Of a stretch of 36,081 bases of DNA, positions 11,644 through 12,498 are shown piece by piece (position 1 is the stretch's first letter; every line of letters begins with the position of its first letter). The notes under the pieces are model-generated. The model was not told the origin of the DNA and searched no databases. It saw only the letters and a list, made by a program, of their open reading frames with translations. The stretch spans positions 11,785 through 47,865 of the forward strand of contig JAEMQU010000012.1 of the NCBI GenBank assembly GCA_016463705.1, written 5' to 3'. Made by a program: the position numbers and the translations under genes. Origin of the DNA: Opitutales bacterium (GTDB lineage: Bacteria > Verrucomicrobiota > Verrucomicrobiia > Opitutales > UBA953).

Positions 11644-12498
11644 TTAAGAAGCGACGTCTTGGTCCGTTACACCAGGGTGCATCTCATAGATGCCTACCGG
11701 AGTCGTCGGACCTGTCATCACGATGGAGTAGTCGGCCCCGATGCCAATCACAATCTTACCCCCCGGCATATTTACCGTTAAATCAGCATCAACTAACCCC
11801 ATTTTATAGGCTACCGCCGCACAGGCCGACGAGGAAGAGCCCGAGGCTAAAGTGTAACCTGCACCACGCTCCCAAATTTCAATTTGAATGTTCTTACGAT
11901 CCAAGACCTTTAAAAATTGTACGTTGGTGCGATTAGGGAAATGAGAATGTAATTCTAAATCAGGACCGTAAGTCTTTGCTAAATCAGCCGTCAGATTATC
12001 AACCAGAATCACACAGTGTGGATTTCCCACGGTCGCTGCCCAATATTTAAAGGTCTTACCTTTTACGGTGATTTCTTCACCCAAGACTTCGCGGTCAGGA
12101 CCGACGTGAGGAATCTGCGGTGCGCGAAATGAGACTTTACCCATTTCGACCCGAATACGATTTCCCCCTTCAAAAACAGAACAGCCCACTAAACCGCCCG
12201 GTGTATGGATTTTAAATTCTTCTTCTTCTTTAATGCGACGAGTTTCTAAAAGGTGACGACAAAAAATTCGAATACCATTTCCCGACTTCTCGGCTTCCGA
12301 GCCATCAGGATTTAAAATGCGTAATCCAAAAGTACCATCCTTGCGTTCAATCGGACCATAAAGAATTCCGTCCGAACCTAAACCGTAATGCCGATGACAA
12401 ACTTTGCGGATGACTTCAGGCGAAAAGAGGGCGGGACAATCTTTGGGCTCTAAAACCAAATAATCGTTTCCGAGGGCATGATACTTCGCAAAGCGCAT
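11644..12498 (-). CDS. dapF: Diaminopimelate epimerase homologue lacking both catalytic cysteines
   Basis: This is a 284-residue DapF-fold protein counted from the ATG at 12498. A GTG at 12540 would add 14 residues, but the family start MxFxKYHALGNDYLV favours the ATG. DapF inverts the meso centre of LL-diaminopimelate for lysine and peptidoglycan synthesis using two cysteines. Substrate-binding features are intact: GLGSDG, NPDGSE, VGNPHCV, NRTNVQF and ERGAGYT. The first catalytic cysteine position (usually E.CGNG) is Ser72 in EKSGNG, and the second (usually ACGTG) is Ser219 in TLASGSSSSA; the DNA codes TCG at both. It may be a slow Ser/Ser epimerase, a different enzyme of this fold, or the clade's normal form. 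The comM gene lies 53 bases upstream. Confidence 0.85.
   Translation of the reverse strand: MRFAKYHALGNDYLVLEPKDCPALFSPEVIRKVCHRHYGLGSDGILYGPIERKDGTFGLRILNPDGSEAEKSGNGIRIFCRHLLETRRIKEEEEFKIHTPGGLVGCSVFEGGNRIRVEMGKVSFRAPQIPHVGPDREVLGEEITVKGKTFKYWAATVGNPHCVILVDNLTADLAKTYGPDLELHSHFPNRTNVQFLKVLDRKNIQIEIWERGAGYTLASGSSSSACAAVAYKMGLVDADLTVNMPGGKIVIGIGADYSIVMTGPTTPVGIYEMHPGVTDQDVAS

Follow-up and report, generated by a model that had tools for sequence, protein, structure and literature searches.

Serines at Both Catalytic Cysteine Positions of an Opitutales DapF Homologue: A Probable Ser/Ser LL-DAP Epimerase

The catalytic power of racemases and epimerases that work without a cofactor is explained by a Cys thiolate adjusted so that it can abstract an α proton of very low acidity, while serine is regarded as ill suited to this role because of its higher pKa and harder desolvation (PMC8142540). 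By current understanding a site with two Ser should barely work, and the studied relatives all use two Cys. What, then, is the function of a dapF homologue in which serine occupies both positions? The gene lies in a stretch of 36,081 nucleotides from an Opitutales bacterium, called the window here. An earlier note on this DNA had left two options, namely that the lineage uses a Ser/Ser epimerase, or that the gene makes something else and the true Cys/Cys enzyme is encoded elsewhere.

The gene occupies positions 11644–12498 on the minus strand, from an ATG at 12498 to a stop at 11644, and encodes a full-length protein of 284 aa. The protein scores 222.4 bits against the DapF equivalog model TIGR00652 (cut-off 114.65) and 179 bits against PF01678 (cut-off 34.7), both repeats of which are matched, in two stretches. 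DapF models are the only ones that match at E ≤ 0.001; the models of histidine racemase, PhzF, and proline racemase give no match, and NF038284, which describes the bifunctional DapF/glutamate racemase, gives 59.4 bits, far under its cut-off of 350. The AlphaFold2 model has a mean pLDDT of 96.4, and its best match in the PDB is the inhibitor-bound Anabaena DapF (9mro, TM 0.89, 36% identity). The predicted fold is that of DapF: two central helices, 73–85 and 220–232, start in the model directly after Ser72 and Ser219, which places the catalytic positions at their N-termini. Clustering of the ORFs flanking dapF across relatives yields clusters made up mostly of antisense ORFs.

The catalytic positions were assigned by alignment with the E. 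coli, Arabidopsis, and Anabaena enzymes. Ser72 (codon 12283–12285, minus strand, motif EKSGNG) corresponds to the catalytic Cys73 of the solved H. influenzae DapF, and Ser219 (codon 11842–11844, minus strand, motif TLASGSSSS) to its Cys217. The reading of the ORF and the alignment thus bear out the observation with which the question began, that serines encoded by TCG stand at both catalytic positions, in EKSGNG and LASGSSSS. Judged from its sequence, the window protein is a non-canonical DapF variant; we file it as such because Ser72 and Ser219 take the place of the Cys/Cys thiolate-thiol pair. The fold, the length, the two-domain pseudo-repeat, the DAP contacts, and the position in the pathway are common to it and to the canonical Cys/Cys enzymes of Anabaena (9mro), E. 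coli (4ijz), and H. influenzae (1gqz), whereas its clade differs from them by the two serines and by Lys71, Ile78, Gln194, Glu207, Tyr215, and Ser222.

The serines are not confined to this protein. Among 231 aligned proteins, a set skewed to Ser/Ser because the queries themselves are of this type, 209 are Ser/Ser, 21 are Cys/Cys, and one is Ser/Cys; the Ser/Ser group contains 188 distinct proteins. After clustering at 80% identity, Ser72 and Ser219 are invariant in 106/106 representatives of the clade, which answers the earlier suggestion to check by alignment whether Ser/Ser is fixed in the clade. At position 72 the 188 distinct proteins use AGY codons in 96 cases and TCN codons in 92, and at position 219 TCN in 168 and AGC in 20. 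There is no single-base route between TCN and AGY that does not leave Ser, and since both codon families are used, selection appears to act on serine itself. The codon data therefore indicate that serine as such is conserved at both sites. A relocated catalytic Cys was considered and rejected: the sole invariant Cys of the clade, Cys34, is also found in plant and cyanobacterial Cys/Cys DapF, and no new one is present.

The genome to which the window belongs (1.47 Mb, 63 contigs, 94.7% complete, a metagenome-like draft) carries a single DapF. The second of the two options fares poorly here, as no Cys/Cys DapF was found elsewhere in this approximately 95% complete assembly; a missed second copy is possible at that completeness, although the pattern is the same throughout the genus. 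A DapF match is present in 51 of 55 genomes of the genus, including all 22 near-complete ones, and every sequence that was read is Ser/Ser. In a sample of 103 genomes of the order, for which the types were counted by match identity and the sequences checked for a subset, about 77 have the Ser/Ser type, 12 have only a Cys/Cys type (~30% identical), one has Ser/Cys, and 13 give no match. The Ser/Cys case (L076, in genome G111) is a very divergent DapF on a very long branch, with the motifs EMSGNG and KSCGSG. Two frames of Cys/Cys-type DapF, the type being assigned by match, have one internal stop each (G295:C48:1491-2189 and G085:C71:5051-5860).

Across the class and the phylum, the Ser/Ser type has a patchy distribution. 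Among GTDB genome contigs, at least 576 relatives were detected. The best 80 of these are all Ser/Ser and mostly from Verrucomicrobiota (Opitutia, Limisphaerales); a small number are recorded under Sumerlaeota, Myxococcota, Thermodesulfobacteriota, Planctomycetota, Pseudomonadota, and Cyanobacteriota. Some of these other records may be mislabelled or contaminant contigs. One cyanobacterial assembly, Westiellopsis prolifica IICB1, has a Verrucomicrobiota-like Ser/Ser DapF on the 2.65 Mb scaffold_2 (L202), possibly from a culture contaminant. Cultured Opitutia with the Ser/Ser type include Cerasicoccus frondis (L188) and strain IMCC26134 (L172). Elsewhere in the phylum, many nearly complete genomes of one genus (g133, family f65) give no DapF match with the window protein as the query. 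In quick trees all Ser/Ser proteins fall on one side of a single branch, and the same split is obtained when both active-site motifs are removed (SH-aLRT 99).

The change of the two catalytic residues is accompanied by changes around them. Comparison of the Ser/Ser proteins with the 21 Cys/Cys ones shows a switch at Leu59, Lys71, Ile78, Gln194, Glu207, Ile208, Tyr215, and Ser222, while the DAP-contact positions stay fixed. Lys71 (12286–12288, minus strand) is Lys in 102/106 Ser/Ser representatives and in none of the 21 Cys/Cys proteins, which have Met and other residues there; Tyr215 (11854–11856, minus strand) is Tyr in 103/106 and 0/21, respectively, most Cys/Cys proteins having Glu; and Ser222 (11833–11835, minus strand) is Ser in 105/106, in place of a glycine found in 21/21. 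The DAP contacts Asn11, Asn63, Gly73, Asn74, Asn159, Asn192, Glu210, Arg211, and Gly220 are invariant in the Ser/Ser clade, as is His161 of the catalytic site. In the segment Trp209-Glu210-Arg211 (11863–11871, minus strand), the last two residues are invariant in both groups; we assume that they contact DAP, a role transferred from the H. influenzae enzyme. The Anabaena enzyme has the backbone amide of Gly227 close enough to the catalytic Cys224 for a hydrogen bond (PMC12039745), and in our reading of the sequences this glycine corresponds to position 222 of the window protein.

The genes of the lysine and meso-DAP pathway show what the organism would require of such a protein. The genome encodes a MurE (481.7 bits, cut-off 257.3) with the DNPR motif, which we take to be the mark of meso-DAP ligases, and a LysA that scores slightly below its cut-off (286 against 297.9 bits). 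A fragment of a DapL-type LL-DAP aminotransferase (NF004937) is located at a contig edge, and a full copy above the cut-off is found in a congener (G004). No DAP dehydrogenase (Ddh), which would bypass the epimerase step, was found in the genome, and no match above the cut-off was obtained for DapD of the succinylase route. From its gene content, the organism appears to need the conversion of LL- to meso-DAP.

Genus g4 is a sister genus in the same family. Most of its genomes are without DapF, and the four DapF-less ones tested (G066, G067, G070, G072; L224–L227) all have Ddh, the copy of G066, the only one scanned, reaching 449 bits with TIGR01921. G065, the other g4 genome tested, encodes DapL together with a DapF of the Cys/Cys type. 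Within the family, the conversion of LL- to meso-DAP thus appears to be filled by a Ser/Ser DapF, a Cys/Cys DapF, or Ddh. The pattern is not strictly exclusive, since one genome (G112) has a protein of the TIGR01921 Ddh family (L243, G112:C1:94000-97000) alongside DapL and a Ser/Ser DapF, and the independent cases are few.

Taken together, homology, clade-wide conservation, the sole DapF copy found, the pathway context, and the predicted fold make it probable that the Ser/Ser DapF functions as an LL-DAP epimerase whose acid-base pair is formed by the two serines. This is the first of the two original options, and it gains support from the single DapF, the clade-fixed serines, the DAP pathway, and the Ddh of the DapF-less sister genus. 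We infer both the catalysis by the window protein and the role of the serines as direct acid and base. LL-DAP made by the DapL-type aminotransferase would be bound through the conserved DAP-contacting residues, after which the enzyme would close. In the closed site, from which water is largely shut out, the helix dipole and the clade-specific neighbours would most likely activate the hydroxyl of one serine to take the α proton, and the second serine would give a proton from the opposite face. The inversion of one α-carbon would yield meso-DAP, to be consumed by MurE and LysA. With somewhat less confidence, we favour the fuller proposal of a clade-wide natural LL-DAP epimerase, in which two-base inversion proceeds through two Ser hydroxyls and no Cys and is enabled by a coordinated remodelling that involves Lys71, Gln194, Glu207, Tyr215, and Ser222.

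We have also considered that the protein is a DAP epimerase in which the proton transfer is carried out by Lys71, Tyr215, Glu207, or Gln194, or by a bound water or a cofactor, and the serines only position the group in question. Several positions do switch completely along with the Cys-to-Ser changes, and a cofactor has been claimed in a related case, the racemization of glutamate by the Chlamydia DapF being described as PLP-dependent (PMC5885031). However, Lys71 is replaced by Ile in 4/106 representatives and Tyr215 by His or Arg in 3/106, while the two serines never vary, and in the predicted model the serines occupy the places of the catalytic Cys at the helix N-termini. We therefore regard this arrangement as rather unlikely.

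A shifted reaction, such as a racemization or elimination in D-Glu, D-Lys, D-His, or ornithine chemistry, with meso-DAP supplied by an unrecognised enzyme, is a further alternative. No MurI over the cut-off is found in the window's genome and five congeners, so that a maker of D-Glu is missing in the genus; relatives of DapF use His, Dab, and O-ureidoserine; and in some members of the proline racemase family the loss of Cys accompanies dehydration (PMC8142540). On the other hand, MurI is present in genomes of sister genera (G064, G061, G091) that also have the Ser/Ser DapF, all DAP contacts are retained, unlike in the substrate-shifted relatives, and the presence of Ddh in the sister genomes without DapF suggests that the DAP step is the one concerned. 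With the match to DapF models only and the score far below the bifunctional cut-off, a shifted reaction seems improbable. The Chlamydia trachomatis bifunctional DapF/glutamate racemase resembles the present case in that it comes from a PVC relative without MurI, but it retains Cys72 and Cys207, both of which are required for its glutamate racemase function (PMC5885031).

Still less credence can be given to a catalytically dead DapF that is retained for binding while meso-DAP comes from another source. Both catalytic Cys are lost, and a non-enzymatic role is possible in the family, as E. coli DapF binds RppH and stimulates it (PMC4227774); yet the substrate contacts are strictly conserved, Ser is specifically kept at both sites, and users of meso-DAP are present in a genome that yielded neither a further epimerase nor a Ddh. 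A sequencing or assembly error, a pseudogene, or a one-genome oddity, as a metagenome-like draft in 63 contigs might suggest, is refuted for practical purposes by the Ser/Ser proteins, of which 188 distinct ones come from many independent genomes, some of them complete chromosomes, with frames open throughout.

The Ser/Ser epimerase has partial precedents. The C73S and C217S variants of H. influenzae DapF (PDB 2q9h and 2q9j) each have serine at one of the two sites. They are among the best structural matches of the model but are single mutants made by engineering and lack the further changes around the site that mark the clade. Canonical DapF has a kcat/KM of about 1e4 to 1e6 per M per s (PMC12039745). 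In other enzymes, single Cys-to-Ser mutants of PddB keep <0.1% of the activity (PMC8225329), and those of HisR are greatly reduced in activity (PMC11602996). Natural replacements are known in the proline racemase family, which has the same superfamily fold: B9JQV3, a 4-hydroxyproline 2-epimerase with a Ser/Cys pair, and B9K4G4, a trans-3-hydroxyproline dehydratase with a Ser/Thr pair in which Ser is catalytic in the dehydration (PMC4113996). Their substrates differ from DAP, B9JQV3 keeps one Cys, and the Cys-free B9K4G4 is a dehydratase. The earlier view that changes of Cys to Ser or Thr go with altered chemistry in this group thus holds for the Thr case, where dehydration is observed, but not for the natural Ser/Cys enzyme, which is still active as an epimerase (PMC4113996). 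The Ser/Ser DapF, with two Ser, no Cys, and an epimerase function suggested by its context, would be one step beyond this precedent. A search of the open-access literature gave no description of a natural Ser/Ser DapF.

If a large natural family relies on two Ser, the fold would be shown to be able to use hydroxyls, and the clade-specific residues would become the candidate compensating set. Inhibitor design would also be affected, since inhibitors that target thiols would be expected to fail against the Ser/Ser DapF. In Opitutaceae, DAP and sacculi have been shown, which speaks for the epimerase reading; the level of DAP was low, its isomers were not distinguished, and TLC gave no DL-DAP, which speaks against it (PMC5303756). 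One may speculate about a link between the Ser/Ser enzyme and this low DAP, as well as the label "peptidoglycan-less" once given to subdivision 4 Verrucomicrobia (PMC5303756). As a separate observation, the genome of the window, at 1.47 Mb, is smaller than the 2.0–2.7 Mb of many congeners, which suggests that it is streamlined relative to them.
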